Source: a virus. Taken from it: DNA of 29,082 nt. Position numbers and translations under genes: made by a program. Positions 1,732 through 21,060 of this stretch are shown here, piece after piece (the first letter of the stretch is position 1; each line of letters begins with the position of its first letter). Where the stretch lies: IMG/VR virus record IMGVR_UViG_3300009509_000115, positions 1 to 29,082 of that record; one strand, written 5' to 3'. Below the pieces are notes generated by a model, which had not been told where the DNA came from, did not search any database, and saw only the letters and a program-made list of their open reading frames with translations.

Positions 1732-4608
1732 TTAAATTCCTAATAAAATACCCATTTGGGTAGCACTTATTTCTGAAGCAGTATTTCTGAAGCCAGCTCG
1801 TTTAAGATATACCGTAACTAGAACCCTCATGTTTAATGATATCATTAAATTGCTATGGTATTCTACAGCCGCAGCGTAACCATCATTATATAATTCGTTC
1901 ATATACATACTTAATAATGAAGTACTAGGATCGTAGTACATACCTATCAAGTCTTTAACTGTGCCACCCATCGTTACATTATATTCGTTTACGATTGATT
2001 GCAAGGCAGCCGTTATTTTAACCTTGCCATTTGTAAAGTCCAACATTTGGACATAAGTGCCATCTGCATATTTCATAGCAGGAAAGCCAGCAGCAGTAAC
2101 ACCATTAGATGATTCGGCCACAAAATTGTCAAACAATAATAGTCCAGAATAACCATCTAAAAATGTTGGGTTACCGTAAGCATCTGTAACGGGTATTTCC
2201 AAATTAACTTGGTTTACCTCAAAATCAATGGAATATGGTGTTCCATCTGGATTTTGCAAATAGCCATCGATTAATACATTGCCTGGCATAAAAAAGTCGT
2301 TCCTGCCACTTAATAACTCTGACGACACTGGAACTGAATAAGTTGTTGCCAGCAAGCGCCTTAGATCAAATATTTCCATTTGGCCCGGCGACCAATTTGG
2401 TATATAATCTATTGCCCAGTCTACACAGCTATCATCTGTAATATTTGGGGCCAATGAAACTGTTGTTGTCAGTGGATTTAATTTACTTTCAAGCAGCAAT
2501 TCTACTCTACTAAATGTAGAAAGAATGTTGCCCGAACCATCAGAAAATGCTTCTATTCTTTTGTTAATATAGTCTTCAATTAAATCCTTATCGGCTATGC
2601 TAACAACACCGTCACCATTAACATCAGCCCTTAAAAATTCCACAATATTAATAGTACCATCTTTAAACAGATATAAATCAGCGGGATTAGTTCTATCTAT
2701 ACTTCCATATGCAGTAATCCAGCCATTTATAATATCAAGGTCATCCAAATCGATGCTTCCATCGCCGTTGATGTCACCATAAGCATCGCTATATATTGTT
2801 TGTTTAATAATGCGACCACTATATGCATCACCACAACATCCTGCTCCACCCGAATGTTGCATGGTAAAATAAGAGCCTATCAAATTGTTCTGTATGTGAT
2901 CTGCATCTGGATTTATAATGTTGAATGCATTATCATAAGCTAAAGCAGGATAATAACACTTGTTGCCTGTAATTTCTGTGGGGTTTCCTCTGGCATTTTG
3001 GTCGCGCACACGAGCCAACAATACTGGATCCGGGTCGGAAGTTAATAGTGTAGTAAGTGAGCTTTGTGTTATAGACGAAATTGTTGGACTTGGCGTAGTA
3101 CGCGAAAATACCTGGTTACCTGTTCGCTGGTCTTGCTCAGGATCAGAGTATGTATCTGATACCTCTAATAAGATATAGTTATAAGCATTCCTGGTAACGG
3201 TCTTGTATGGCTGATATCCTAATATATAAGCCACTTCGGTATTTGTTTCATCTTTGGCCACTCGCGGTATTTGTACTCCAATACCCTCATCATAGGCAAT
3301 ACCATCTGTAATTTTTACATAATCGCCATATATTTCAAACCACATATCACTTTCTGGAATATCGATCCAATCAGAGCCATCATATATAACCATATGGCTG
3401 TCGTCTACTCTATCTGAAGCCTCTTCTATAAGCAAGGTTCCTACAGTAGTATCTCCAGCTCTGCCTAGAGTAAAAACATAATATTTATCCTCTTCTATTG
3501 GAGAACGATCTGGGTCAGATACATTTGAGCCAGTAAAAATGAAATCAACTATATGCATATATCCATCTGTTAGATCTATACCTTGGAAAGCAAGGTCATC
3601 AGCATCTAGTACTACTTGCCCAATAACTGTTGGGTCTGGATCAAAATCAATAGCATTGTCTGGCGTAGGTGTGACAGGACACTCAACTTCAGTTTGTAAT
3701 TCATGAAGAGTTAAAACAACATCGCCTGTCCAATTATATGCATCAGCTATGGGCACCGTGTTATCATACTTTACAGAGAGCAAGACCGAAATTTTCTGAA
3801 TGTTATTCCCGTTTGATAGAAACTTTTGGCCAATTCTAGTCGTCACATCGTTATAAGGCAGTTCTCTTTGAGCAACGGAGGACATACCTATATTCATATC
3901 AACAATAGATTTATCTGCCCCGATGGCATTTCTTAACATGGTGGTTATGGTATCTGTTGCACTCGCTGGTTTGAAATCACTCCAAAACATATTTGGCTGA
4001 GCGTTTTGTGCGAACATAATTGGATCTGGAGAAATTTCCATTGCCATAGCTTCCCTAATTACACACCGTCCAATCAAGTCATAACCATCTTCTTCTGCTG
4101 CAAATTTATAGCTGCCCCACAAGTTGCCAGCAAAATCATTAAATAAAATGCCCCTAATGCGAGTATATCTGTGTCTTGTAATTTGAGTTCCATTGTATTC
4201 AAACACAAGATCATCATGTACAAGCTCGCCACCAAATGTGTCGCCAATAATAGCTACTTTACTACTTGCTGCACCATAAAGACGCGCATTGGTTATCGAT
4301 ACTGCAAGCTGCACTCCATTTACTGCATCAGATACCGTAGGTAAATCCGTTCCGATATATAAGTTTTGGCCATCAAAACCATAAGAGTCTAATGTCGCCT
4401 GTTGTGCGCTGTTTAAGTTATCAGTGTCAAAAATAACGGGCGGTGAAGGATATTCGTCCAAAACTCCACTGGCAAAAAAGTTATTTTCGTTGGCAGCATC
4501 TATGCCTACATTTCGGTCCTGTTCATCCACTAAATCTTCATAGGTGACCTGCTGTCCGTCATACCAATTGTTTTTCTTAAGATTAACAGGCAATAGCCTA
4601 CTAGTCAT
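1732..4608 (-). CDS. large baseplate/fibre structural protein with dockerin-like EF-hand domain
   Basis: A 958-residue structural protein lying between the LamG giant and the tail fibre. The ATG at 4608 is chosen because AGGAGG sits eight bases upstream; an in-frame GTG at 4614 would be only two bases from it. The N-terminus has a KNNWYDGQQVTYEDL segment like those at the start of baseplate-associated fibre-network proteins. Most of the protein reads as beta-rich with no catalytic motif. Residues about 606-690 hold two canonical calcium loops: DINGDGSIDLDD (612-623) has Asp, Asn, Asp, Ser, Asp and Asp at positions 1, 3, 5, 7, 9 and 12, and DVNGDGVVSIAD (662-673) has Asp, Asn, Asp, Val, Ser and Asp. 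They are separated by about 50 residues, as in type I dockerin domains. It contains five DGY and four DAY tripeptides, and a CC pair near 591. The role as adhesin or fibre adaptor is inferred. Confidence 0.75.
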   Translation of the reverse strand: MTSRLLPVNLKKNNWYDGQQVTYEDLVDEQDRNVGIDAANENNFFASGVLDEYPSPPVIFDTDNLNSAQQATLDSYGFDGQNLYIGTDLPTVSDAVNGVQLAVSITNARLYGAASSKVAIIGDTFGGELVHDDLVFEYNGTQITRHRYTRIRGILFNDFAGNLWGSYKFAAEEDGYDLIGRCVIREAMAMEISPDPIMFAQNAQPNMFWSDFKPASATDTITTMLRNAIGADKSIVDMNIGMSSVAQRELPYNDVTTRIGQKFLSNGNNIQKISVLLSVKYDNTVPIADAYNWTGDVVLTLHELQTEVECPVTPTPDNAIDFDPDPTVIGQVVLDADDLAFQGIDLTDGYMHIVDFIFTGSNVSDPDRSPIEEDKYYVFTLGRAGDTTVGTLLIEEASDRVDDSHMVIYDGSDWIDIPESDMWFEIYGDYVKITDGIAYDEGIGVQIPRVAKDETNTEVAYILGYQPYKTVTRNAYNYILLEVSDTYSDPEQDQRTGNQVFSRTTPSPTISSITQSSLTTLLTSDPDPVLLARVRDQNARGNPTEITGNKCYYPALAYDNAFNIINPDADHIQNNLIGSYFTMQHSGGAGCCGDAYSGRIIKQTIYSDAYGDINGDGSIDLDDLDIINGWITAYGSIDRTNPADLYLFKDGTINIVEFLRADVNGDGVVSIADKDLIEDYINKRIEAFSDGSGNILSTFSRVELLLESKLNPLTTTVSLAPNITDDSCVDWAIDYIPNWSPGQMEIFDLRRLLATTYSVPVSSELLSGRNDFFMPGNVLIDGYLQNPDGTPYSIDFEVNQVNLEIPVTDAYGNPTFLDGYSGLLLFDNFVAESSNGVTAAGFPAMKYADGTYVQMLDFTNGKVKITAALQSIVNEYNVTMGGTVKDLIGMYYDPSTSLLSMYMNELYNDGYAAAVEYHSNLMISLNMRVLVTVYLKRAGFRNTASEISATQMGILLGI

Positions 4609-4616
4609 TGTCACAT

Positions 4617-4622
4617 CCTCCT
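4617..4622 (-). promoter_or_regulatory. ribosome binding site AGGAGG that decides the start at 4608
   Basis: AGGAGG overlaps the TAG stop (4621-4623) of the 2276-residue gene. It is eight bases from the ATG at 4608 but only two from the in-frame GTG at 4614, so the ATG is the likely start. Confidence 0.75.
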
Positions 4623-7600
4623 ATTTAGTAAAGCTGACAAATGCCCGTGTGTGACCCGGTTTTAGTTCTTGTACTAAATCTGTAATCAGCTGATGTATTA
4701 AGTCTGTATCTGCAAGTTCAAATGTATCAATTACTTCAACAAAGAAATCAAATATTCCTGTTGCCATATTGCGAACTGTTGCTAAATTCTCTACCTCAGT
4801 TTGTGTTGTATTAAAATCTAACAACAAACGAGTAAGCGCATCACTAATAACTGGCTGCGCAGTGTTTAAATTACTGGTATAGAAAATGTCTCTTCCAATT
4901 GATTGACCAGGGCCACTGCCCCCAAGATATGTAATGGTCCTTAGTTCGCTAGAAATTCTTAAGTTATCCATACGGGCCATTGCTGGAAATTGACCAGTAA
5001 AGTCTGCCCCTATATGAATTGTGTTAAATAAATCTTCCAAGTTAATATCTGCTAATATATTTCGTGCAGCTGTGGTGCCAGCTGTGGCAGAGCCCCATAC
5101 GGTAGGTGAACCATACAAATGTCCACTTCCATATAGGAGACCAGTACCATACCTAATTATTCCTGTCTCTATACCATCTACCATTAAAACCAACCTATCT
5201 TGGTTATCTTCATTATTTAAATCCCAGCCTACAAAAACTCTATGCCAGGAATTTTTCTTCCAGTAAATTGGTGCCCTGATTTGATATTCAACTCCTGAAG
5301 CAGACACATATAGTACCAAGGAACCAGTTTCATTTTTGTATATGCTAAATCTGTCGCCCTGGCTGGTTATAGGAACATATTGTACAATTACATTCCTGAC
5401 GCCTTTTGGAAGTGGCTGCCCCAATGTAATTGTAAATCCATCATTGGAAAGTGTGCCAGCCTCGAAATAATTCGTATCTGAACCCTGAATGGTGACCGAA
5501 TTAACACTACGCGCTCTCACAGGCAGAACTATAGTAAGGCGAGATTGTGCAGTAGTTTCAATCACCTGTTCTGGGCTTAGGTCGATGTAGTATCGTCTGG
5601 TTGGATCATTATAAGTGTCTAAAATAGGGCTAATCCAAAATTCTATTGTACCTTCATTATTATCAAAGATAGACTTGTTGTCTACAGCCAATGAGGTTTT
5701 TCTATTAAATATAGCGGACTGACCAAACGCCGCATTTACACTGTTCTCGCTCTGTGTGTATTCAGGAGAAAAGCTAGCATAGAAACTGGCAGAATTTACT
5801 ACATCATCATTAAAATGAAATAGGGCTAGTGTTTGGGTTGTGTCAGCAAATTCATCCACAACCAAAGCATCAGTCGTTATTGATCTGCCCGAACTTGGTG
5901 CAGCTTCTCCCTTTCCAGTATCAACCGACAACTCATCAAGAATACGCATCTCATCAATAACAGCACTCGATTGATTTGAGCCTTCCATATCTGAGCCTAT
6001 GTATAGTAAAGAAGGTATTTCTGGCCAGTAAACAGTCAGATAAGTTGGAAAATCTACTTCATACCAGCAACTTCTAAGTAGAAATGGCTGGCCACCAGAC
6101 CGCGCCCTTTCTAATGTAATAAGTCCATTTGCAAAACCACTATCGCCGTAAGATGTTGTTAAGAGTCGCCAATTTATACTAGAATAATTAGCAGGCCAAG
6201 TAGTATTTAAAACTACCGTATTGGAGTCTATTACTGTGCCGCTTGGATCCAATGCTACGTCAATTACTGTATAGGTCCCAGCTATGGCTGTGGGCGAAGT
6301 AATATTTACAATATCTCCTATATTCTCTGCACCAAAGCGTGCATATGCATCGGTGAGCGAGGAACCACCAGAGGTGGCAATGCCATTGGTACCTGCCTGC
6401 CTCTGTACAGACAAATGCACTTCAGCATATTCTCCACCATTTTCTTGCCATGTAATTGGATGCATCTCTCTAATTTCTACTGTTCCTGCTGGTAATGTAG
6501 AATCTATCGGACTAAATGCCACGAAAATATTATCTATAAAAGTAAAGTATTTTGCTGTAGATTGGGTTCCTGGCTCAGTAAAAGTCAGGGTTTCAGTATC
6601 ATATCCGTCTGGCGTTTCGCCCGTAAAAATTACTTGATTAAGACCACCCCAATCTATATTACTACCACTTACTGTAACAGACAGACGCCGCCCTGTAATA
6701 TCGTTTGAAGGTTGGCAAAAATCTGGTATATCAAAAGCAAATACTGGGATGATATGACCACCCACAGAAGTTGCAATCAACGTAAAGACACCAGGATCAA
6801 TAACCATGCGCTTTACAATTATACTAGTAATGTTTATTTTAGAAATGGCCGTTGGTTGCGGCATTATTGTACTAAGAATATTAGTTTGCATATCTGGCCA
6901 GATATATACATACTGTCTGCACCTACTCTGCATCAGTCCATATGAACGCAGGATTACGCTGTCTCCCACAGCCACACCATCATAGACATTTACATATTCT
7001 AAATATCCATCATCTTCAAAACCGTACTGTGGTGTCAATGTGCCCGGCGGATATAACTCTGTTTCATCGCCACCAGGAGTTACAGAAAAAACTCTAACAC
7101 GCTCCACATCATTGTCACTTACAGTTTGTAATTTTAGTGAATTGACACTAAAACGCACGTCAGATAAAGACAATTGCAATGTATAACTAATTTGCAATTG
7201 CGTCTCGCTGAGTACCGCAAGCACAGTTACATCATGAGTCTGTGTGTATTGTCCATCTGCCGTGCTGTCTAGGATCACAAATGAAGCTCCTGGAGACACT
7301 CCGTCAGTGACAAAGGTAGAACCTGCGGAAATAACTATGTCAGAACTCTGTGTGGTGCGCATGTCAAACCCACCAATGGTTGGAGCAGGCGCGGCTAATG
7401 AGAGAGTTTCTGTAGCTGTATCCATAAAAATTGCGCCAATCGGTGGCTCCAGATATCCTCTGTATCTAAAAGTGTTGGGTACTTCACCACCATCTATAAA
7501 AAGATGCATTTCATCTCTTTCTTCAATGGTTCCTAATTTCCAAGAACATGCGACATGATGTGTCTCTGTTGCCTCCCATTCATGAATTGGGGCACTTAAA

Positions 7601-10600
7601 ACTTTAAGGCGATGATTCCCGTCATAAACCCTGAAGCGCAAATATCCCTTGCCATCTTTAAAGAGCGACATTCTACAGTAGTTTTCATCCACGCCAGTAT
7701 CAAAAAGATAATGTATATTATCAGAAGAAAAATTTAAACCATCAAATCCGCCGATTATTCCTGGAGCGTAAGCGTCGTACGCATCAAATATTGTATTATA
7801 TTCATCATATCCATCAATCGAAAAAGAGAACTTTATCCTAGCATCTGTAGAAGTAATATGGTCAGTTACCTCATTTATACTATAACCATCATACCCATCG
7901 TATGCATCAGCCGTACTTGCAGATTTTACATCATAAAATTCTCCTGTGGTTGTTATGATGCCATCGAAATCTTTTGGAGTAGCTGTTATGGGTGCCCGCA
8001 CTCTAAACACCCACTCGTTAAGTGATGAGTCAAACCAAATAAAATAGCCTACTGCATTATGAAGCATATTTGGTTTACCTAGGGTTTCCACATCTTCTCT
8101 ATTCAAATCAAACGGAATTGTTGTAGGATGTATGCTGTTGCTGCCTATGTAGATTTTGGTTGTATCATAAACTCCATCATACATTATATCAAATGTTAAT
8201 GTGGCATCATTATCGATCCCTGCCCATTCTGGAGTCACAAAAGCTTCCCATGTGCCTTCATTAAATCTCAAATTTGATGTGGCAGGGATAACGGCAGTTT
8301 GAGATGCTTTATCAAGCAACAAACCATTGCCAAATTTACCCGGCGCAAACGTTGGCCAATCTTCTTCATCATCAGCATAAAGAGCCATTTCTTGGAGATG
8401 CAAAAAATCTCTACCTAAAATCCATTCCAAAAAGACGGACTCGATGATGTTTGGATCGATTTCTGTAAAAGCACTTGCTAACTGCTTCAGTGCTGGAATT
8501 GTTGGTCCCTTAGGAAATGCCTGCAACGAACCACTGATGGCATTTCTATATACTTCTCTGTCCAAATCATCTGGGATAGTAGATAATTCTTCTAGGCCAG
8601 TCATTACTCCAAAGTTGTCTCTTAATGAATTTCTAAGAGCACCGTATCGATATGATACATAATAGGTGTCGTCAGTATTCAATGTATCAGAAATGCTCCA
8701 ATCTAATACATTATCTCCATACTCGTAAGTTATAAGAATTTCGTCTGTCGTATATGCATAATCTACATACATATTACCAACCGTATAATCTACAAGTACT
8801 GCTGCACCATCACGCAAACGAGCTTTATATGTAGCAGTTACTCTTCTGCCCACTGCCCAATTTGCCGCTACCGGCAGATATATTCTATTATTAATTGCAT
8901 CTACAAATCCGTCTGTTCCAAGAGCAAAATAATCCAGATTGGTGATATCGTCTCTAACATAAGTAGCTGATACTAAAACTGCAAGACTGCGTTGATATAA
9001 ATCGTCAAGGCGTTCGGCTTCAATATAAGCTCTTGAACCAGTCCATTTTACAAGAATTCCAGCGCCACTATTATTGTCAATGATAGTCACACCAGAAGTG
9101 TTTAGTTCAATAGTATTTCCAGAAACAGCAGAAATAGAAGAACCTACGCCGAAATCAATTGGATCATGTGTGTTTTGTAGGTCTACTACCTGATAGACAT
9201 GATTAAGGTGATCAACATCATATCGCACCTCAACTGCGCCGCCACTTACAACAATAGGAACATAGGTGCCTGTTGAATCTAACACTGTTCTTTCGCCCGC
9301 CTCTTCTAAATCCGAAAGGCTTATAGTTGCATCTTCTACAAGATCAACTCCATATGTTTTTGTAATTTGTCCAATTTTTGGACTTCTGTAAACATTGTTG
9401 GCTCTTATGATGTGGTCATTTCTGGTTTGTACTACAGCTTTCTTATATGTGCTATCTCCAATATCTGTAGTGGCTGTAGACAAAACAGCAAGATAAACTG
9501 TGCCACTTACATAATTTACCATATAATCGCCCACTACTTGAAGGCGCTGCAAATTGTCCGTCAGGCTATCTTCAGGATCATAATAAAACTCTCGTACAAA
9601 TGTATTGCTGTCGGAGAAAGTTAGAGAGCTATTAAAGCTGGCCCCTACAAAATTTTCAGTAGCAGAGCCAATATTTTCATCAGAAAGATGTATTTCAAAT
9701 GCTATAAAAGATTTAGAAGGTATAGTTATTCTATCTGCTACTACCAATTGAGACTGAATTATAGATTCAAATTCGGCCCTTTCTCTCTCCACATCAACAA
9801 TATTTGGAGGTGTTACTGCATCAAAATAGACAGCATTCCCACTTATTCTGGTGGGAGTATATAATTCTCCTGTGGTTTCATTATAAATTCTAAAGACTTC
9901 ATTGACCGGATAATTCTGTGTTCTTACTCCTATAGTTTCAATAAGATTATTATTTACACGCTCATTAATGACCTCTATATGTGATGCGAAATTAAAATCA
10001 ACACCATTTGCATAAGTATCTTCGTATTCATACCAAATGGTTGCCGGATTTCCTCGCAAATCTCTGTCAGGCAGCGAAGCCACTTCGTTAAGATCTGAGA
10101 AGAAGCGATAATCCAAGCCTTCCTGATAAGTTTTTTGTGCTGTATAAGAAGCTACCGGAGGAATAACTGTTGTTCCATCGGTGCCGGTGCCATCTACTCC
10201 GAACACAAAAACTTGGCCGGTATTATAATCAACACTGAATTGTCCAGGCAGACTTGGCAAACTTGCAGCATTAAACTGTATTTCGGTTACAAAAGCTGGA
10301 TGTTTTTTTGTAGGATCAAAATTTTGGGCTGGGTCTAGCCAAGAAACACCATTTCTTGTAGGAACGTTGCCCGTAGAATCTACAATTGGAGCATTGTCTA
10401 GGTAGAAAGATGTTGCCACAGCAGGGGCTGCTTCTCTTACAATATCGACATCTGTAGTTATACGAACTGAGCTAGCTTCAACAATGCGCCCTGCTTTTTT
10501 ATAGTAATATGAAATAATGAATTCATCGCTTCCCTGAGGAAATGGAAAAGAGGGCCCGATAGCCGAAGCATTCAATTGAATTTGATTATTATCTAAATTC

Positions 10601-11451
10601 AGTGCAGAATAAGAATGGTCTGGGTCATACTTGCTGTCATAGATGCCATATTTATACTGCGCAATATCATAGGTATAAGAGGTAGTTCCGCGCACCAATT
10701 CTATTGAGGTTACTTTAATTACCGTTTCTTTGTTCAATGTAATTACAAGACCAACAAAACTGTTGCCGCTTGTAGTATTAGATACTGTTTCTCCATCTAC
10801 AAACAATTGTTGCAAACTCACTGGCGCCGCAGGAAATTCTGTATAATCTGTGCTAGCGCTAGTGGTCGTACCTGTAACGCTAGATCTCACGCTTAACAGT
10901 TGAAAAACTCCTTCATTTGCAAAACGATCAAATGGCCCAGAACCTCTGGTTATTTCTTCATCCTCAACGTCGATAGATACATAGTTTGCGCTTTTTACTT
11001 CGCCCGCAGCATGAGAGGAATGTTCTATTTCTTTCGCCCCAGCTTCTATAAAATCAAAAATTCTTGAGCCCGGCTCTTTATTATAAATGTCCGGAATATA
11101 ATCAAGAATAGCCTCTCTAATTTCACTATCTTCTATAAGTCCCACAAAGAATGATACATTAGTGGTACCATCCTCTAAGAACCGTTCGCCATGTACTCCT
11201 TGAATTATACGAGACGTGGTTGATTCTAATATAAGTTTATAGTAGGCACCAGGCACCATCGGGCGCACATTAATGGTCAGCACATTCTCTGATGTAGACA
11301 CAGATGTTACGGTAAGAGCAGAAACACCACCTTGGGCGCCCGCTATCGTCACGTTCTCTACACCAATACCAGAGCTGAGACTAGTTGTAAATTCAACTTC
11401 TATTTTAGTGCTTGTTCTTATTTTAGTACGAACAATCCTAATGTTTGCCAT
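4621..11451 (-). CDS. giant baseplate protein with LamG-like domains, in the tail protein I position
   Basis: A 2276-residue virion protein directly downstream of baseplate J. Residues 1-95 look like an SbsA-type Ig fold (KIEVEFTTSL, then VRPMVPGAYYKLIL). Residues about 105-180 (ILDYIPDIYNKEPGS) and the extreme C-terminus (LIHQLITDLVQELKPGHTR) resemble parts of P2-type tail protein I. Residues about 240-950 are repeated beta modules with YTYD and VxYxY strands. A LamG-like (concanavalin-fold) domain starts near 1034 (FAPGKFGNGLLL) and continues with HHVACSWKL and MHLFIDG near 1300-1320. A half-LamG ends near 1815-1840 (LLYIGSDMEG, AVIDEMRIL). A further LamG spans about 1875-2170 (ALFHFNDD, GTIEFWISP, WHRVFVGWDL, HIGADFTG). 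LamG folds bind glycans, so receptor or glycan contact is likely but unproven. It contains five DGY and four DAY tripeptides, clustered in an insertion in the first LamG. GAGGAA lies eight bases before the ATG. Confidence 0.78.
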   Translation of the reverse strand: MANIRIVRTKIRTSTKIEVEFTTSLSSGIGVENVTIAGAQGGVSALTVTSVSTSENVLTINVRPMVPGAYYKLILESTTSRIIQGVHGERFLEDGTTNVSFFVGLIEDSEIREAILDYIPDIYNKEPGSRIFDFIEAGAKEIEHSSHAAGEVKSANYVSIDVEDEEITRGSGPFDRFANEGVFQLLSVRSSVTGTTTSASTDYTEFPAAPVSLQQLFVDGETVSNTTSGNSFVGLVITLNKETVIKVTSIELVRGTTSYTYDIAQYKYGIYDSKYDPDHSYSALNLDNNQIQLNASAIGPSFPFPQGSDEFIISYYYKKAGRIVEASSVRITTDVDIVREAAPAVATSFYLDNAPIVDSTGNVPTRNGVSWLDPAQNFDPTKKHPAFVTEIQFNAASLPSLPGQFSVDYNTGQVFVFGVDGTGTDGTTVIPPVASYTAQKTYQEGLDYRFFSDLNEVASLPDRDLRGNPATIWYEYEDTYANGVDFNFASHIEVINERVNNNLIETIGVRTQNYPVNEVFRIYNETTGELYTPTRISGNAVYFDAVTPPNIVDVERERAEFESIIQSQLVVADRITIPSKSFIAFEIHLSDENIGSATENFVGASFNSSLTFSDSNTFVREFYYDPEDSLTDNLQRLQVVGDYMVNYVSGTVYLAVLSTATTDIGDSTYKKAVVQTRNDHIIRANNVYRSPKIGQITKTYGVDLVEDATISLSDLEEAGERTVLDSTGTYVPIVVSGGAVEVRYDVDHLNHVYQVVDLQNTHDPIDFGVGSSISAVSGNTIELNTSGVTIIDNNSGAGILVKWTGSRAYIEAERLDDLYQRSLAVLVSATYVRDDITNLDYFALGTDGFVDAINNRIYLPVAANWAVGRRVTATYKARLRDGAAVLVDYTVGNMYVDYAYTTDEILITYEYGDNVLDWSISDTLNTDDTYYVSYRYGALRNSLRDNFGVMTGLEELSTIPDDLDREVYRNAISGSLQAFPKGPTIPALKQLASAFTEIDPNIIESVFLEWILGRDFLHLQEMALYADDEEDWPTFAPGKFGNGLLLDKASQTAVIPATSNLRFNEGTWEAFVTPEWAGIDNDATLTFDIMYDGVYDTTKIYIGSNSIHPTTIPFDLNREDVETLGKPNMLHNAVGYFIWFDSSLNEWVFRVRAPITATPKDFDGIITTTGEFYDVKSASTADAYDGYDGYSINEVTDHITSTDARIKFSFSIDGYDEYNTIFDAYDAYAPGIIGGFDGLNFSSDNIHYLFDTGVDENYCRMSLFKDGKGYLRFRVYDGNHRLKVLSAPIHEWEATETHHVACSWKLGTIEERDEMHLFIDGGEVPNTFRYRGYLEPPIGAIFMDTATETLSLAAPAPTIGGFDMRTTQSSDIVISAGSTFVTDGVSPGASFVILDSTADGQYTQTHDVTVLAVLSETQLQISYTLQLSLSDVRFSVNSLKLQTVSDNDVERVRVFSVTPGGDETELYPPGTLTPQYGFEDDGYLEYVNVYDGVAVGDSVILRSYGLMQSRCRQYVYIWPDMQTNILSTIMPQPTAISKINITSIIVKRMVIDPGVFTLIATSVGGHIIPVFAFDIPDFCQPSNDITGRRLSVTVSGSNIDWGGLNQVIFTGETPDGYDTETLTFTEPGTQSTAKYFTFIDNIFVAFSPIDSTLPAGTVEIREMHPITWQENGGEYAEVHLSVQRQAGTNGIATSGGSSLTDAYARFGAENIGDIVNITSPTAIAGTYTVIDVALDPSGTVIDSNTVVLNTTWPANYSSINWRLLTTSYGDSGFANGLITLERARSGGQPFLLRSCWYEVDFPTYLTVYWPEIPSLLYIGSDMEGSNQSSAVIDEMRILDELSVDTGKGEAAPSSGRSITTDALVVDEFADTTQTLALFHFNDDVVNSASFYASFSPEYTQSENSVNAAFGQSAIFNRKTSLAVDNKSIFDNNEGTIEFWISPILDTYNDPTRRYYIDLSPEQVIETTAQSRLTIVLPVRARSVNSVTIQGSDTNYFEAGTLSNDGFTITLGQPLPKGVRNVIVQYVPITSQGDRFSIYKNETGSLVLYVSASGVEYQIRAPIYWKKNSWHRVFVGWDLNNEDNQDRLVLMVDGIETGIIRYGTGLLYGSGHLYGSPTVWGSATAGTTAARNILADINLEDLFNTIHIGADFTGQFPAMARMDNLRISSELRTITYLGGSGPGQSIGRDIFYTSNLNTAQPVISDALTRLLLDFNTTQTEVENLATVRNMATGIFDFFVEVIDTFELADTDLIHQLITDLVQELKPGHTRAFVSFTK

Positions 11452-11453
11452 TT

Positions 11454-14400
11454 TTAGCGTTCCTCTGTTGTTACGGTTACAATTCCAGGAGCCAGATACT
11501 CACTTTTTTGAGCAGTTATACTCAACTTGGTGCCAGAAACGTTAGTTATATTAAACCTTGTTATTCTCACTCTATCTACACCCTCTACATTATATACATT
11601 GTTAACAATATCTGAAGAATCCAATGTAGTGCCTAATGCAGTAGCAGTTAAGGTAGAAGTTATATTATCTGCCACGTCTTGTTTTACCGTACTCTCCTTA
11701 TCTTGATATGCAGTATCTACTATAATTACAGCAGTCACATCCAACTCTATCTTGGTTGCAGCTTTCACCAGAACATCAGCTGTAATGGGCCGCTTTTCCT
11801 CAATTGCTTCTGTAGCATCAGCAATCAATTTATTGTACTCATAATTTATAGTTATTCTTTCATTTTCTTTAGGCGCTGTATAATTATAATCAACAGCATA
11901 TGATTCATTCTCTACAGGTTGGTTTAATGTATCAATTTGCATACTTCCACTTACGGTGCCACCGGAATCCTGTAGTCCAGACACTCTGCTTACAGCAGAT
12001 ACATATCCAAAACGTTTATCTGTAATTGCTTTCCCACTTCTCGAAAAATACAAATCTTCATAGTCATTTTCTTTTGCATAATAAAATGTAATGTTTAATT
12101 TGGTTCCAGTTGTAATAGCAGCAGAAGTTTGAGTGTTAGTTGTAGATGACGCCAAAGATACGCTTGTGCGTGACAAACTAGGTATTTCAATTGCATTTGC
12201 TCTGTCCCATACTGAACTTCTGATTTTATAATTTGTTAAATCATATGTATAATCAACAGAGCTAATGGCCCCGCTTATGTCAAGAGTAACCTTTTCCATT
12301 TTAACAACACGAGCAACAGATATATAACTAGAAATAGAAGCAGTGCTAGACAGACCCTCTGCCGCCCTAATAAGGGCGCTTAAATCAATATTTTGGTTGC
12401 TTGATGTTACCGTAAGTACCCCTGCTACTTTATTTATCGTAGTACCACTTATACGAAGCGAGCCGCCCGTAGCAGGTATGTTAGAAGTGGTCATCACTAG
12501 ATTAGAAGGCGAGCGACGTTGATTTGTACTTACAACTGAACCGGTATATGTATTTAGTACCGGCTGGTATCCATCTACACTAACAAAAGAATTAAAACCG
12601 TCGCCCGATATGGGCAAACTTGACAGTTGTGTGTTTGTCGGGATAACATTAGATAAATCGGCCACATAGTTAACTCGTACTATAGTTCCAGATGACACTA
12701 CCGTCGATGGTAAGATGGTAATTTCATTATTCACGAATTGACCACTATTTGTGGCAGATGCCAAGTCTGTTAAATTGTATACTACAGAAACTATATCACC
12801 CACTTGAGCAATAGTATCAGTTGGCAAAGTAATCAGCACATTAGAAAAGGTACCATCAGCTTCCAAAGTGTTATATACTTCTGGACTGCCAGACAACGAA
12901 TTATCTTTAATACTATGTATGTTGCTTACAGCTGTAGTTACCTCAATAGTCATATCGGCTTTTACAATAGCAGTTTCGCTTTCAAAAGTATTAACAGAAA
13001 GCACACGGCTGATTGGATAGTCAGTTTTTACAGTTAAATTATTATATGCATCTAAAATAGCTTGTGAGATTTCGTCTCGTATATAATTTGAAAAACCCCA
13101 CTCTACCGAGTCCTGTGCTTCATCCAAAGGATCGATAGGATCGAAGTTATCAAAGTCTATATACTGATCATAAGAAAAAAGCCAAGTATAATCCACTTGT
13201 AATACATCACTAGCCGTGGGAAGTGTTCGCCCACTTATTTCTATTTTTCCTGTTGTGTTAACTGAGCCGCCATCAGGATTTTGATCTTTGATCGTATAGC
13301 GTTCGCCAGTTGTCAAATTGAAAACTCTACTTACTGTTTTAATTGGAGCATGATTAGTAGTAACATATTTTCTTTGAGAACCAACAGTAGAGTTTTCATT
13401 AGTTACTTGAATCTCTTGTTCTATGCCCGGTATTATCAGAACGTCAGTAAAAGAGAGCCCATCAATACTATTAAACGGACCTTTGGTAGTTGATTCCCCT
13501 TCTAGCTCGATGTGATCAGAAGTCCATGCAAACTTATCTAAACCAAACGCACTGCCGCCCGCATAACCAGTATCTTTTATCAATTTGTAGTTTCCTTGAT
13601 AATTACCTGATTCGTCCAGATATTGTTCTACAAAATTGGGCCCCGATGAACTGCCGCTTACAGATACTAGCTTTGTAACTGGTTGATTAGGAATATCTGC
13701 AGTTCCGGATAGTGTTGCTACTCTGCGCGAGTTTAAAGTTAGATTTGTACTTGCAGTGAGACTACTTTGCCCCAAGACATAATCGTTATCAGATGATGCT
13801 GGGTCACTAGCACCACTTTGATCATAATATACGAAACTATCTATTCCAGCCTGAGCATTTTCGCCCATAACATATATATCTACGCGTCCCCCAGTGCCTG
13901 GCTCAGAAACAATCAAATTACCATCAGAATCTTCAACTACTACCGTGCCATCCCTAATCATTAATGGATCGCCGGGCTCAATCACAAGAGCATCAATTGC
14001 ATCAGCAAGATTCAAAATAACGCTTCTGTATCCTATGGCCGTACCAACATTGGCCCCAGCAAATGTGGCTAAAATACGCGCACGAAAAGCCGCATCGCTT
14101 TCAAGATCAGTTCCTCCTGTAAAAGGAGATAAATTAGTAACATTGCTGACACCAGCAATGCTATGGTTAATAATAGAATATGCTGCAATATTTCCTGCAC
14201 TTCCTTGACTTTGTGCTTCAACCGAAATTTCAATAGCAAATTCGTCCGTAATCCCTGCTGTATTCAGCTGCTCACGTAAACGTGTAGCTGTTGCTCTTAA
14301 TGCATTTGATTGAGTTGTTCTAATGGTTACTGTAGATACAGTGAGAAAGGGAAGGCCATTTCTTGTTCTTACAACAGAGTTCTGTGATATAGTTACATCA

Positions 14401-14696
14401 TTATCTAAACTCTTAAATGTAAAAACAGCAGTTCCTATCGCTTTAGTGCCAGTTTGTCTGCTTATGCCATAGTTAGAGCCATAATTTGTTAAATCCTGCC
14501 CTGTTAAATTGGCAATGGATTGTAAAGCAGAAATCTGTTGAAGCACGTCATATATATTGGAAACTTGTAAAGCCTGCGCATCAATAAACAAATCTCTAGC
14601 TACCGAGTTTGGCTTTATATCTAGGCTAGGCTGAGATAATCGCAAGCTATTAATTATATCTAAGACTATGTTGTTAAAACTTTTAAAAGTTACCAT
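11454..14696 (-). CDS. baseplate J-like wedge protein with large internal insertion
   Basis: A 1080-residue homologue of the phage Mu gp47 / P2 J / T4 gp6 type baseplate wedge protein. The N-terminal part is diagnostic: PNSVARDLF near 29, an ALQSIANLTGQDLTNYG segment (57-73), SAGNIAAYSI near 166, FTGGTDLESDAAFRARI (192-208) and GGRVDIYVMG near 269. The C-terminal part, about 958-1080, carries the usual KRPITADVLVKAA, an I.V..V.. strand and a NVEGVDRVRIT segment. Between them, at about 280-955, lies an insertion of some 675 residues made of repeated beta-rich modules (for example VDYTYDLTNYKI at 814-825). Ordinary J proteins are roughly 300-400 residues. The gene starts one base after the stop of the W-like gene, with GAGG about nine bases upstream. 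The function in joining wedges around the hub is well supported; the role of the insertion is unknown. Confidence 0.9.
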   Translation of the reverse strand: MVTFKSFNNIVLDIINSLRLSQPSLDIKPNSVARDLFIDAQALQVSNIYDVLQQISALQSIANLTGQDLTNYGSNYGISRQTGTKAIGTAVFTFKSLDNDVTISQNSVVRTRNGLPFLTVSTVTIRTTQSNALRATATRLREQLNTAGITDEFAIEISVEAQSQGSAGNIAAYSIINHSIAGVSNVTNLSPFTGGTDLESDAAFRARILATFAGANVGTAIGYRSVILNLADAIDALVIEPGDPLMIRDGTVVVEDSDGNLIVSEPGTGGRVDIYVMGENAQAGIDSFVYYDQSGASDPASSDNDYVLGQSSLTASTNLTLNSRRVATLSGTADIPNQPVTKLVSVSGSSSGPNFVEQYLDESGNYQGNYKLIKDTGYAGGSAFGLDKFAWTSDHIELEGESTTKGPFNSIDGLSFTDVLIIPGIEQEIQVTNENSTVGSQRKYVTTNHAPIKTVSRVFNLTTGERYTIKDQNPDGGSVNTTGKIEISGRTLPTASDVLQVDYTWLFSYDQYIDFDNFDPIDPLDEAQDSVEWGFSNYIRDEISQAILDAYNNLTVKTDYPISRVLSVNTFESETAIVKADMTIEVTTAVSNIHSIKDNSLSGSPEVYNTLEADGTFSNVLITLPTDTIAQVGDIVSVVYNLTDLASATNSGQFVNNEITILPSTVVSSGTIVRVNYVADLSNVIPTNTQLSSLPISGDGFNSFVSVDGYQPVLNTYTGSVVSTNQRRSPSNLVMTTSNIPATGGSLRISGTTINKVAGVLTVTSSNQNIDLSALIRAAEGLSSTASISSYISVARVVKMEKVTLDISGAISSVDYTYDLTNYKIRSSVWDRANAIEIPSLSRTSVSLASSTTNTQTSAAITTGTKLNITFYYAKENDYEDLYFSRSGKAITDKRFGYVSAVSRVSGLQDSGGTVSGSMQIDTLNQPVENESYAVDYNYTAPKENERITINYEYNKLIADATEAIEEKRPITADVLVKAATKIELDVTAVIIVDTAYQDKESTVKQDVADNITSTLTATALGTTLDSSDIVNNVYNVEGVDRVRITRFNITNVSGTKLSITAQKSEYLAPGIVTVTTEER

Positions 14697-14697
14697 T

Positions 14698-15126
14698 TTA
14701 TACCCTCAATTCAAATGTTTCTTCAACTACATTAAGTTTGCGCGTTAACACAGAGACTGTTACTTGAAATTGTCTAGGATCTTGCTCATCTCTAAGCACA
14801 CTAATATGACGGATAACAGCTATAGTTTCGCCGGCAGATACGTATTGAATGCGTGCCTGCGCATTTTGTAGTGCAATTAAAGTGCTTAACGTATTCTGAA
14901 TAGTACGCTGGGCTTCGGCTTCAATAGTTACCATATCTAATGCCTGTCCAATAACCGATGCAGACAACGCATTTCCATACCACTTATGAAATTTATTTGA
15001 TCCGATGGTAGTCAAAATGGCTTTGATAATATCCTGGATCAACTTGTCATTATCTCTGACTGTTTGAATGCTGCCATCGTTATTAATAGCTAAATCATTG
15101 CTTTCTATGCGCAAATCAAAAGACAT
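14698..15126 (-). CDS. baseplate wedge protein, gp25 / W family
   Basis: A 142-residue protein of the size and pattern of T4 gp25, P2 W and Mu gp46, which initiate sheath assembly at the baseplate. The N-terminus MSFDLRIESNDLAINNDGSI followed by DNDKLIQDIIKAILTTIG matches the family pattern of a short strand, a turn, then a Q.I...L.T..G helix. The C-terminal half forms strands ending in RQFQVTVSVLTRKL. The ATG at 15126 is chosen because GAGGAG lies seven bases upstream and it leaves a four-base gap after the preceding stop. A longer in-frame reading back to 15276 would overlap the 548-residue gene by about 145 bases and adds a stretch unlike the family. The position immediately before baseplate J is the classical one. 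Confidence 0.87.
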   Translation of the reverse strand: MSFDLRIESNDLAINNDGSIQTVRDNDKLIQDIIKAILTTIGSNKFHKWYGNALSASVIGQALDMVTIEAEAQRTIQNTLSTLIALQNAQARIQYVSAGETIAVIRHISVLRDEQDPRQFQVTVSVLTRKLNVVEETFELRV

Positions 15127-15130
15127 ATTA

Positions 15131-16777
15131 TCACTCCTCTTTTCCCTCAGAGTAGGAAACACGCCTACTAGTTTTGGATTTTCTTTTTCTGTTCTGGGCT
15201 TGTCTAGAACGTTTAGTTCGATCCTCATACTGTTTAACAAGAGCATTAAAAGAATCAAATACAAATTGTACTGCACTTTGTAATCTATTCACAGCCTCTG
15301 TAGCCTTTTCTATACCATCTGGGTTTCCCAAATCTTCTATTGCAGCTTTTAATCTTTTGTCCTTTTTCATTTCTTCTTTTGTCTCTGTATCCAGCAAAGC
15401 AACCAAATATTCCTCATCAATAATAAAGAGAGCAGTTATTACTGCGATAACATCTGGCACAGAAAGACCGGTAAATTCTCCTGTCATAAGCTCCAATTCT
15501 ACTCTTAGTGACTCAATTCCTCTTGTATCATTTTTAATACCATTCTCAACTTTTTGAATACTAGTTTTAATTTGTTCTATATTATATGATAACAACTTTG
15601 TAAAAGGATCTGTTAATGCCATCAGTGCAGTATTCTTCGTAGTGGCAGTGCGACTGTTTGTGCCATAAATACTATCTTCGCTTGGCAACAAAGACAACAT
15701 TGCTTCTTCTTCCAATAAAGCTTTTTGTAATTTTTGTAATTCTTCACCCCGATCACTTTCTGGCTTAATTGTTAGAGTGGCTGTTGGCTCAGCTCTTTTG
15801 CCAAATGGTGTTGTTTTACTTGAAGTAGTTTTTACAGCAATAGTAAAATCAGTTTTTGAAAGAAATAGTTCTTGTAGAATTCGCAGCTTAACCCACCTTT
15901 TAGCCAATTGGTGCAAAGAAGATAAAAGTTTTACTACAATAAATCCTTCTAGTGTATTTAGACTTCCACTTGTTATAATCCCCCACAGCTCTAATGTATC
16001 TACGCCCAAAGAAGTTAAGTTTTCCTCTATTGCATTTATCTTTGCTAATTCATTTTCATCATCGGCATTTGTAGCACTGATCATGCGGATTCTTGCGACC
16101 GTCTCTATAAATGGTTTGGCTAGTACTGTTCTGCTATCAGGCATTTGATCTTGTAATAACTGCAAAAAGGGCCGTGCCACTTCATTTTTCATCGGCTGTA
16201 TTTTCATATAAGTAGTTACCAATGGAAATAGAGCCTTATAAACCTCTCTCTCCGATTCTTTTCCGACATCTATTTTATTCTTTTTTGATACTGCCAGTGC
16301 AATGTCTGAGTCAGTTTTTGCAGAAGGATAATTTATAGTCACTGGCATAGCACTTCTAAGAGCTTTTACCATAGCTTCATCCATTTTGCTGTTGCCAATT
16401 TCTTCTTGTTGTTCTTTTAGCATTGCCTCTCTTTTTTGAGCCAACTCTCCCAAAGATGTGCTGTTTCTAACAATATACGGACTCAATCTGCTACCATAAT
16501 AGCCAGGTGTTAGATGACGTTTTCCAGAAAGGTTACCACTAGCAACGCCATCGCTTCCTTTTGGCAACTCAATATTTACAAACATAGGCAACCCAATTAG
16601 CCTAAAAAATGCGTTAAGCCTGGACTCAACAGGATATTGGTACTGTTTCTTTGTTTCTGGGTCTGTGTCTTGTGCAACAGAGCGAATCGAGTCCACTTCT
16701 GCCAATACCTTTTTGGCAAACTCAATTACATTGAAATCTCCTATAGCATTCACTATGCTTGCAGTGTCATTACCCAT
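15131..16777 (-). CDS. baseplate-cluster protein of unknown function, coiled-coil with basic tail
   Basis: A 548-residue protein that I do not recognise. Its ATG overlaps the TAA of the preceding gene by one base (TAATG), with GGGAG nine bases upstream. It is largely alpha-helical and charged. A segment near 50-66 reads ESRLNAFFRLIGLPMFV. Probable coiled-coil stretches lie at about 340-362, 398-430 and 462-520. The C-terminal 30 residues are strongly basic (RTKRSRQAQNRKRKSKTSRR at 520-539) before an acidic end. No membrane segment, signal peptide, catalytic motif or DGY tripeptide is visible. Its place between the hub/spike genes and the W-like gene suggests an accessory baseplate or tail-assembly protein. 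The basic tail could contact DNA or an acidic partner, but that is only inference. Confidence 0.7.
   Translation of the reverse strand: MGNDTASIVNAIGDFNVIEFAKKVLAEVDSIRSVAQDTDPETKKQYQYPVESRLNAFFRLIGLPMFVNIELPKGSDGVASGNLSGKRHLTPGYYGSRLSPYIVRNSTSLGELAQKREAMLKEQQEEIGNSKMDEAMVKALRSAMPVTINYPSAKTDSDIALAVSKKNKIDVGKESEREVYKALFPLVTTYMKIQPMKNEVARPFLQLLQDQMPDSRTVLAKPFIETVARIRMISATNADDENELAKINAIEENLTSLGVDTLELWGIITSGSLNTLEGFIVVKLLSSLHQLAKRWVKLRILQELFLSKTDFTIAVKTTSSKTTPFGKRAEPTATLTIKPESDRGEELQKLQKALLEEEAMLSLLPSEDSIYGTNSRTATTKNTALMALTDPFTKLLSYNIEQIKTSIQKVENGIKNDTRGIESLRVELELMTGEFTGLSVPDVIAVITALFIIDEEYLVALLDTETKEEMKKDKRLKAAIEDLGNPDGIEKATEAVNRLQSAVQFVFDSFNALVKQYEDRTKRSRQAQNRKRKSKTSRRVSYSEGKEE
15134..15139 (-). 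promoter_or_regulatory. ribosome binding site GAGGAG that decides the start at 15126
   Basis: GAGGAG lies within the last codons of the 548-residue gene, seven bases before the ATG at 15126. It favours the 142-residue W-like protein over the 192-residue reading. Confidence 0.75.
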
Positions 16778-18837: not shown

Positions 18838-21060
18838 CTATATCAGTCTTCCATCTCTTATTATATATCTAGGATTGCGTTTGTAATTCTGAATTACAGG
18901 TGCTTCTAAGATAATTGCACTTCCACTTTGAAGTGTCATATTTTGGCCACTTATAATATTAAATTGGCCAGGCGTCAGCAAAGTCATGCCCGACTCATCT
19001 ATAATTAATAAGTTTTCATCAGTGGTGTCTGGGCCGGTCCCAGATGTATTAGCACGCCTTACTTTTATAACGATTTTACCATCTCTAAAACGTTTTTTGT
19101 CTCTAGGCAACGATTGTGTTCTAGCAGCTCCTCTTCCAACAAATCTGGTGTCAACCTCATCACTTGAGTTTTCGCCAACAAAGTCAAAGCCTCCGACTTC
19201 TATAGCAATAGTGCCATCACTATGAATGATAGCACTTCTTCCTTGCCTATCTCTTCCAAGTCTTGCAACCAGTGCCCCAGCCGTATCTAATACCCACGAA
19301 ACTCTATCAATGGTATTAGCTCCAATGGACAATTCCAAACTGCCATCCATGTTGACTTGTGCGCTACGTCCACCAGCATTAGGTTGATTTGTTACTAACC
19401 CAGTCACAGTAGCATCTCTAATTGCAGAAGCCGCAGGATCATATATTGCGTTAATCTCCTGCGCAATTGCTAGGGGATCTGAATAATTTGCCTGAGTACC
19501 ATCGGTTGGTATTTCTGATGCCCTAAGATTGATATTGTTCTGCAGCAATGTTTTTGCAGTTTGTGTAATATCATGAAACGCCGTGCCTGCTTCTACATAT
19601 TTTGGCAAAGATGACGCTGCACTGCCATTTTCTACCCAACTGGTTTTTTTACCTTTCAGACGATTTTCAATTTTATCAATATTCGTTTTTACTTTGATAC
19701 CACCGGGGCCAAACTGATCGTGGAAAATATCCTGATTATTTGCATTGCGATATAGCCCATCGGTATCATCGCGCTGCCCATCAGTTAATTTGCCATTAGA
19801 ATCAACTTTAAGAACACTTGATGTCTCTTGTCTTGTTAAAAAAGGAATGGTCCCGGTCTCTGACGTAGCTGGAATATTAAGGGTAGTCAACCCTTCTTTA
19901 TCTATTCTGAGTGCCCATCGACTCCTATCTCGTGCGTTATTTGCAGATATCATAGGGTTAGGAATACTATCTGATAGTACTGCTGGTTTCAGACTGCGTT
20001 CGCCTTCTCTATAAGCATAGCCCTTTTTGGTGTTTATTTCCATATGGTAGGCAACCGAATGTCTGTTAATTTCAAAAACATTAAGCAACAAGTCGCTTGG
20101 TGTTTTTCCCGTCGGCACTGGCAGAGTCGCTTTGTTTATATTTAACACATTGCCAAATATGTCTATAAGATTACCGTTTATTCTTTCAATTAATTCGTTT
20201 GGATAAGTTTGAGAAAGACTTAAGACATTGCTTCTTCTAGCGCGACGATCACTAGAATCGGACAAAATAATGTCGTCGCTTTGTAGTTTTATAAGCTCGT
20301 CTTGAAAATCTCCAACGGCCCAGCTTTTGGCGTATTCAAAAACAACTTCTCTGTTTTCTGTACGAGGCGGATTTCTAAACCGCTTATCTTCTGATGGGGT
20401 CGTACCTTGTGAAATAGGGGTGCGAGTATAAAGAGAAGTCTGCTTAGATGGATCCCAACCAACTTGTTCCAAAACTTGTTCAGAATCAGGATCGGTTAAG
20501 AAGTTAACAAATTCTTTTTCGCTTTCTTCAGTTCTTATATCTCGGCGCACTATGCCGCTTGTTTTTATGCCAGCTTCAGAAATATGATATTCAGTTGGGG
20601 ACGCTATTCCTATAGAACACCGAATGGAATGATCAGCTGCATTATAAATCACGCCTTCACCAAATTGGTTCTCTAGGATGATATCGCCATTATTATTTAA
20701 ACGCAACTGAGAACCAGTGGCTCCTTGAGCAACTATATCTCCAGATTCTATATACGGAAAACTTATATCATCATAATCTACTTCCGCAGTATCTATAGAA
20801 TTACTATATGAAGCAGACAAAGGAGCCGTGAATACTGGAACATATTGTTCGGCTGATAACATACTAAGGGCAATAACATTGCCTTTGCGGAATCCCACAA
20901 ATATGCCCTCTCCATTTTTGCCAGGATAAGGATGTGGGATTGAAACAATAGGACCTTCTATGCCAGGATCATCAATCCATTCAGTATACATTATACCCCT
21001 AACATAATCTACTGAAGTCACTGTTGCCAAACGAAGAACGTTTGAGACTAGTCTACTCAT
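18838..21060 (-). CDS. baseplate spike protein with N-terminal OB-fold
   Basis: A 740-residue protein in the position of Mu gp45 / P2 V / T4 gp5, which caps the tail tube and pierces the cell envelope. Residues about 8-85 have the OB-fold pattern of this family: ATVTSVDYVRGIMYTEW, then GPIVSIPHPYPG and GEGIFVGFRKGNVIALS. The following parts carry short G-D-I/L-x-L beta repeats (NNGDIILENQFGEG, DGSLELSIG, DGTIAIEVGG), consistent with a beta-helical spike, and the end reads SGQNMTLQSGSAIILEAP. I see neither a lysozyme domain nor an HxH iron-binding tip motif near the C-terminus. The ATG at 21060 is preferred because AGAGGA lies five bases upstream. An in-frame GTG at 21084 lacks such a site. 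The start overlaps the hub gene's stop by eight bases (ATGAGTAG). No DGY tripeptides are present. Confidence 0.83.
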   Translation of the reverse strand: MSRLVSNVLRLATVTSVDYVRGIMYTEWIDDPGIEGPIVSIPHPYPGKNGEGIFVGFRKGNVIALSMLSAEQYVPVFTAPLSASYSNSIDTAEVDYDDISFPYIESGDIVAQGATGSQLRLNNNGDIILENQFGEGVIYNAADHSIRCSIGIASPTEYHISEAGIKTSGIVRRDIRTEESEKEFVNFLTDPDSEQVLEQVGWDPSKQTSLYTRTPISQGTTPSEDKRFRNPPRTENREVVFEYAKSWAVGDFQDELIKLQSDDIILSDSSDRRARRSNVLSLSQTYPNELIERINGNLIDIFGNVLNINKATLPVPTGKTPSDLLLNVFEINRHSVAYHMEINTKKGYAYREGERSLKPAVLSDSIPNPMISANNARDRSRWALRIDKEGLTTLNIPATSETGTIPFLTRQETSSVLKVDSNGKLTDGQRDDTDGLYRNANNQDIFHDQFGPGGIKVKTNIDKIENRLKGKKTSWVENGSAASSLPKYVEAGTAFHDITQTAKTLLQNNINLRASEIPTDGTQANYSDPLAIAQEINAIYDPAASAIRDATVTGLVTNQPNAGGRSAQVNMDGSLELSIGANTIDRVSWVLDTAGALVARLGRDRQGRSAIIHSDGTIAIEVGGFDFVGENSSDEVDTRFVGRGAARTQSLPRDKKRFRDGKIVIKVRRANTSGTGPDTTDENLLIIDESGMTLLTPGQFNIISGQNMTLQSGSAIILEAPVIQNYKRNPRYIIRDGRLI

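Follow-up and report, generated by a model that had tools for sequence, protein, structure and literature searches.

A complete type I dockerin fold is predicted within a baseplate-region protein of a giant phage, where it probably serves as a calcium-locked architectural module in the baseplate or fibre connector of a contractile tail. Dockerins are familiar from cellular adhesion and enzyme scaffolds, and are best known in the bacterial machines that digest cellulose. The DNA examined here (the window, 29,082 nucleotides) makes up a 29-kb virus record, and the gene concerned occupies positions 1732-4614 of the minus strand, encoding a protein with homologues in more than 100 viral loci. The open reading frame specifies 960 amino acids from a GTG start, or 958 from an in-frame ATG at 4608, two codons on; comparison with relatives places their starts near 4608, in agreement with the ATG, which is also the start behind the 958-residue count of an earlier, sequence-only reading. 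That reading had recognized two calcium loops about 50 residues apart, and both lie where it placed them: loop 1 (DINGDGSIDLDD; residues 614-625, positions 2740-2775, minus strand) and loop 2 (DVNGDGVVSIAD; residues 664-675, positions 2590-2625, minus strand). Each is a 12-residue loop of the type DxNxDGxhxxxD, with position 12 occupied by Asp and not by Glu as in the canonical EF-hand. The module as a whole spans residues 608-693 (2536-2793, minus strand), as delimited by the PF00404 profile, an AlphaFold2 model, superpositions on solved dockerins, and comparison of a family profile with sequences in the PDB.

Its proposed identity as a type I dockerin was borne out by profile search. Positions 1-57 of PF00404, the full length of the model, align to residues 612-684. 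With the whole 960-residue protein as query, the score was 20.5 bits (E 5e-4), just below the cut-off of 22.9, while the isolated dockerin slice scored 27.1 bits (E 4.8e-6); among relatives, 19 of 25 were matched, with scores of up to 47.9 bits. In a six-frame scan of the window with PF00404, the sole match was to the dockerin place in the 1732-4614 reading frame, and the genomes of relatives likewise gave essentially one place each, in the dockerin protein, besides weak sub-threshold rows. The EF-hand families, which had been put forward for the same comparison, yielded nothing near a cut-off: all of their models fell far below on the window protein, and a canonical EF-hand pair (PF13499) was not recognized.

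An AlphaFold2 model of the window protein (mean pLDDT 76.3, with the dockerin blocks at 81-94) confirmed the paired F-hand dockerin fold at the level of predicted tertiary structure. The modeled elements, all encoded on the minus strand, run in the order of a beta strand leading into loop 1 (residues 598-611, 2782-2823), loop 1 itself, helix 1 (623-636, 2707-2748, as assigned by DSSP), a linker helix (644-651) followed by a turn and a helix (657-663) ahead of loop 2 (together 2626-2685), loop 2, helix 3 (673-683, 2566-2598), and a beta strand past the dockerin (700-709, 2488-2517). Foldseek identified 8x39_A with a probability of 1.00 and an rmsd of 1.8 Å, the E-value with the 960-residue query being only 0.02. 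By VIA, 13 dockerin entries were matched at Z 7-11, of which 8x39_A was the best (Z 11.2); entries crystallized together with cohesins (4uyp_B, 4dh2_D, 2ccl_B) were among them. A profile built from 25 relatives retrieved almost only dockerins from the PDB sequences, with a best E of 7e-9. The sequence-only reading had named the lack of a profile hit and a fold unlike a paired EF-hand, such as a calcium-binding turn in a beta repeat, as grounds for abandoning the dockerin; given the profile match and the predicted fold, that outcome did not occur, and the beta-repeat turn was rejected. Its third, degenerate calcium loop (KDGTINIVEFL) fared less well, as this stretch forms the turn and helix at 657-663 that lead into loop 2 in the model, and mainly its Gly is conserved, together with RA immediately ahead of loop 2.

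The genetic context is that of a contractile-tail baseplate. In order on the minus strand are found the genes for a gp25-like sheath initiator (14698-15276; phrog_2669 and phrog_120, with PF10934 below its cut-off), a Baseplate_J/gp6-like wedge protein (11454-14696; PF04865 at 89.3 bits, phrog_6 at E 3e-39), a 2276-residue protein whose C-terminal region holds a Laminin_G_3 (ConA-like) domain (4621-11451), the dockerin protein, and a 478-residue fibre protein that starts with a PKD-like stretch and carries GDLxGTYPSPxVxGLQGR...VLTW repeats (282-1718). The 2276-residue protein has no PHROG match; of 106 loci, 105 have a homologue of its gene upstream of the dockerin gene, the remaining one being truncated by the end of its contig. 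Within the dockerin protein, a beta domain (residues 198-431, 3322-4023, minus strand) resembles baseplate chains of Staphylococcus phage phi812 by VIA (9euj_G, Z 15.0, 2.9 Å over 151 aligned residues; 9euf_0, Z 13.9), although identity over the aligned part is only 16-17% and no dockerin aligned there. No match between phi812 and the window protein was found at the sequence level. The gene order and this one domain match support the assignment of the protein as a myovirus baseplate or fibre connector, and hence uphold the earlier placement of the dockerin inside a virion protein; its position in the particle we infer from the same evidence. In part of a clade described below, the C-terminus of the protein runs into fibre-type repeats (18 of 106 loci by motif scan), which suggests that this end faces the fibre. 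Elsewhere in the window, 21053-25765 encodes a 1570-residue protein whose profile weakly matches another phi812 chain, 9euf_E (a peptidase C51 domain protein, E 0.0024).

Homologues were collected by several routes. A search with the baseplate J protein gave 12 viral loci, nine of which hold a dockerin protein at 42-61% identity; a dockerin-protein profile with search patterns outside the domain gave 27; a profile limited to the first 560 residues gave 96 confirmed loci, the 80 best of them being retained; and a profile of the dockerin only gave 44, with the same protein in 43 of them. An initial short-pattern search with the window protein alone had found no viral relative, its patterns being too strict. 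Alignment of the combined set comprised 90 distinct sequences, each 850 residues or longer, and the viral contigs bearing homologues reach 459 kb. Among 50,697 deposited phage records, tblastn found no relative of the dockerin protein, and a further search for cultured relatives returned only two matches, of 3-7% coverage and E 0.1-0.5. The baseplate J protein is also present in Bacillus phage G and in Tunturi_5, neither of which gave a dockerin match, and a link to the Moraphage lineage (PMC12619734) was sought and could not be shown. The sole match in a cellular genome was to a contig of 3 kb, placed in the bin of a Thioploca MAG, that encodes a member of the family, reflecting either contamination of the bin by phage DNA or a hint of the host. 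A different viral protein, of 255 residues (L091:3755-4522), starts with a dockerin whose loops are about 95 residues apart.

Both loops were in place in all 90 distinct homologues, including those retrieved by patterns outside the domain, and a chance occurrence of the pair is thereby excluded. With every homologue carrying the dockerin, recent acquisition by a single phage was rejected, and the module is, judged from these sequences, ancestral in a broad group of uncultured giant phages. Three Asp residues are invariant (90/90), those at position 12 of the two loops and at position 1 of loop 1, and Asp at position 1 of loop 2 is found in 86. Ligands and core are fixed while surface positions vary, and the ligand positions rank mostly in the lowest 6-17% of variability within the protein. 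A few members have degraded ligands, at loop 1 in L030 and L037 (DIVTNNKIDASD and DVVTSNKIDISD, respectively) and at loop 2 in L022 (TAGLDGYITATD), and full calcium occupancy may thus not be required in all of them. These degraded loops also weigh against a reading in which the dockerin senses extracellular Ca2+ and, by folding or unfolding, helps to keep the baseplate in place or to trigger it. Such a switch would suit a baseplate-region protein in which the ligands of two loops are conserved, and calcium-dependent adsorption is common among phages, but no sign of conformational coupling was seen, and we regard it as very improbable.

Over 33 close pairs of homologues, the mean difference in identity between the dockerin and the rest of the protein was -2 points, and the two therefore change at about equal rates. 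This lends no support to a hypervariable receptor-binding tip. It also bears on the possibility that the dockerin grips cohesin-bearing proteins of the host surface, for which an exposed location on the tail is plausible and surface positions do differ among phages; cohesins and dockerins beyond cellulosomes are, moreover, widespread, occurring in many bacteria and archaea (PMC9012536). Unlike typical receptor-binding tips, the domain shows no clear excess in rate over the remaining protein among close relatives. It is also internal and has been kept across phages from many metagenomes, the hosts of which probably differ, and host attachment of this kind is considered very unlikely.

The homologues fall into two architectures, compact (49 sequences, loops 46-64 residues apart) and split (41 sequences, loops 136-178 residues apart, with an inserted domain), and both spacings set the phage module apart from type I cellulosomal dockerins. 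In the split clade the wide spacing is due to a stretch of about 90 residues, folded as beta structure, that follows the end of helix 1 and precedes the helix leading to loop 2. An AlphaFold2 model of a representative split module (L098:9669-10403, built with 40 sequences) had a mean pLDDT of 88.8, and VIA-align superposed it on 8x39_A with Z 9.5 and 72 residues aligned across the insert (model residues 31-240); in the model the two halves therefore come together as a single dockerin despite the insert. PF00404 matches 39 of 40 slices from the split clade. Foldseek alone returned only weak, mixed beta-barrel rows for the split slice, and the inserted domain gave no clear match to known folds by VIA (Z about 7 or less). 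Artificial Gly-Ser inserts have been made at the corresponding place, between the helices of a Clostridium thermocellum dockerin (PMC4728124).

Known dockerins of type I act by binding cohesins, and a Ca2+-dependent plug into a cohesin-like beta-sandwich protein of the virion, attaching a fibre or a neighboring wedge, is an alternative to the architectural reading. The fold matches to dockerins crystallized with cohesins and the adjacency of the dockerin gene to the same 2276-residue gene in 105 of 106 loci would both be in keeping with such a plug. Nevertheless, the cohesin profile (PF00963) gave no above-threshold match in 40 phage records, the longest of 459 kb, the window itself being drawn from a 29-kb fragment. 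The single sub-threshold match (L175, G035:C1:109079-109267; E 0.0044, 14.5 bits against a cut-off of 24.1) fell in a homologue of the protein encoded at 21053-25765, and alignment of that family against PDB sequences and Pfam did not reproduce it in other members; it is probably a chance match over 40 records. The positions of each repeat that contact cohesin in cellulosomal dockerins, which we take to be 10, 11, 14, 17 and 18 (compare PMC4728124), rank at the 73rd-100th percentile of variability within the protein among the 90 homologues, more variation than a conserved partner inherited together with the dockerin would lead one to expect. The window protein has LD and IA at positions 10 and 11 of its two repeats, and across the 90 homologues no S-T recognition motif is fixed and symmetry between repeats at these positions is absent, in contrast to the type I cellulosomal dockerins. 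Many noncellulosomal dockerins also differ at these recognition positions. The missing symmetry lowers the likelihood of cohesin binding of the cellulosomal type and leaves the dockerin fold untouched. An excess of symmetry between the repeats is seen at position 22, and weakly at 15, 17 and 19, so that there may still be a two-sided binding surface. A cohesin fold may also have diverged past detection with Pfam, or the partner may reside in the host. Taken with the cohesin search of the phage records, these positions did not sustain the earlier suggestion of docking to a virion partner with a cohesin fold, and we judge an assembly plug unlikely. A broader version, in which a working plug engages either a diverged cohesin-like virion protein or a host surface cohesin, and in the split clade also carries the domain inserted in its linker, is judged unlikely as well; if true, tail assembly or adsorption in this giant-phage lineage would run on cohesin-dockerin chemistry.

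The absence of a detectable cohesin, the variable contact positions and the ordinary rate of change of the domain fit a calcium-locked architectural module with a tolerant linker, although the variable surface positions give the structural role no positive support. As proposed, one complete type I dockerin fold would be seated between two beta strands, with each loop-helix motif holding a single Ca2+ through Asp1, Asn or Asp at position 3, Asp or Asn at position 5, and Asp12, an occupancy that we infer from the ligands. Binding of Ca2+ would lock the dockerin into a compact knob, and the knob would in turn fix the geometry between a wedge-facing N-terminal part and a fibre-facing C-terminal part. 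A Tyr ahead of loop 1 and a Pro past helix 3 occur at a fixed offset in 33 of the 90 homologues; the window protein has the Tyr (Tyr612), with Ser where Pro is expected. In the relatives that have both, these residues would fit the clasp of cellulosomal dockerins, and the entry and exit of the domain would accordingly be positioned together. The linker may serve as a platform, an extra beta domain being placed on it in nearly half of the sequences.

Among known systems, the closest likeness is to the double-dockerin protein Clo1313_0689 of C. thermocellum (8x39/8x3a), at the 1.8 Å rmsd and the profile E of 7e-9 already given, with the order YGD...loop-helix...loop-helix...I..xPxG of its second dockerin. 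The first dockerin of Clo1313_0689 prefers the ScaD cohesin and the second is functionally ambiguous (review PMC12484212). Clo1313_0689 is cellular and protease-linked, whereas the phage module lies inside its protein, its linker is longer, and no cohesin was found to accompany it. With the type I cellulosomal dockerins (2ccl, 4uyp, 4dh2), it shares the paired F-hand fold, Asp as the twelfth loop residue and, in many phage relatives, the Tyr/Pro clasp residues (PMC4728124). A protein of an uncultured Caudovirales phage, A0A6J5RS54, is a whole-length fold match to the window protein (E 2.7e-76, 24% identity) and, at 1332 residues, has the length of a split-clade member. It bears the automatic name 'Dockerin domain-containing protein', for which a literature search found no underlying study. 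The search likewise found no paper describing a dockerin as part of a virion, and the one phage paper that contains the word concerns a carbohydrate-binding module (PMC5967307).

The dockerin fold and the name of one relative were already known; new are the universal retention of a dockerin in a baseplate-region protein of giant phages, its split form, and the failure to detect a cohesin alongside it. The dockerin protein provides a marker for a broad lineage of uncultured giant phages, and the dockerin itself a calcium-dependent element of a contractile tail that lends itself to experimental test. The split clade, for its part, shows a dockerin whose halves are naturally separated by an entire inserted domain.
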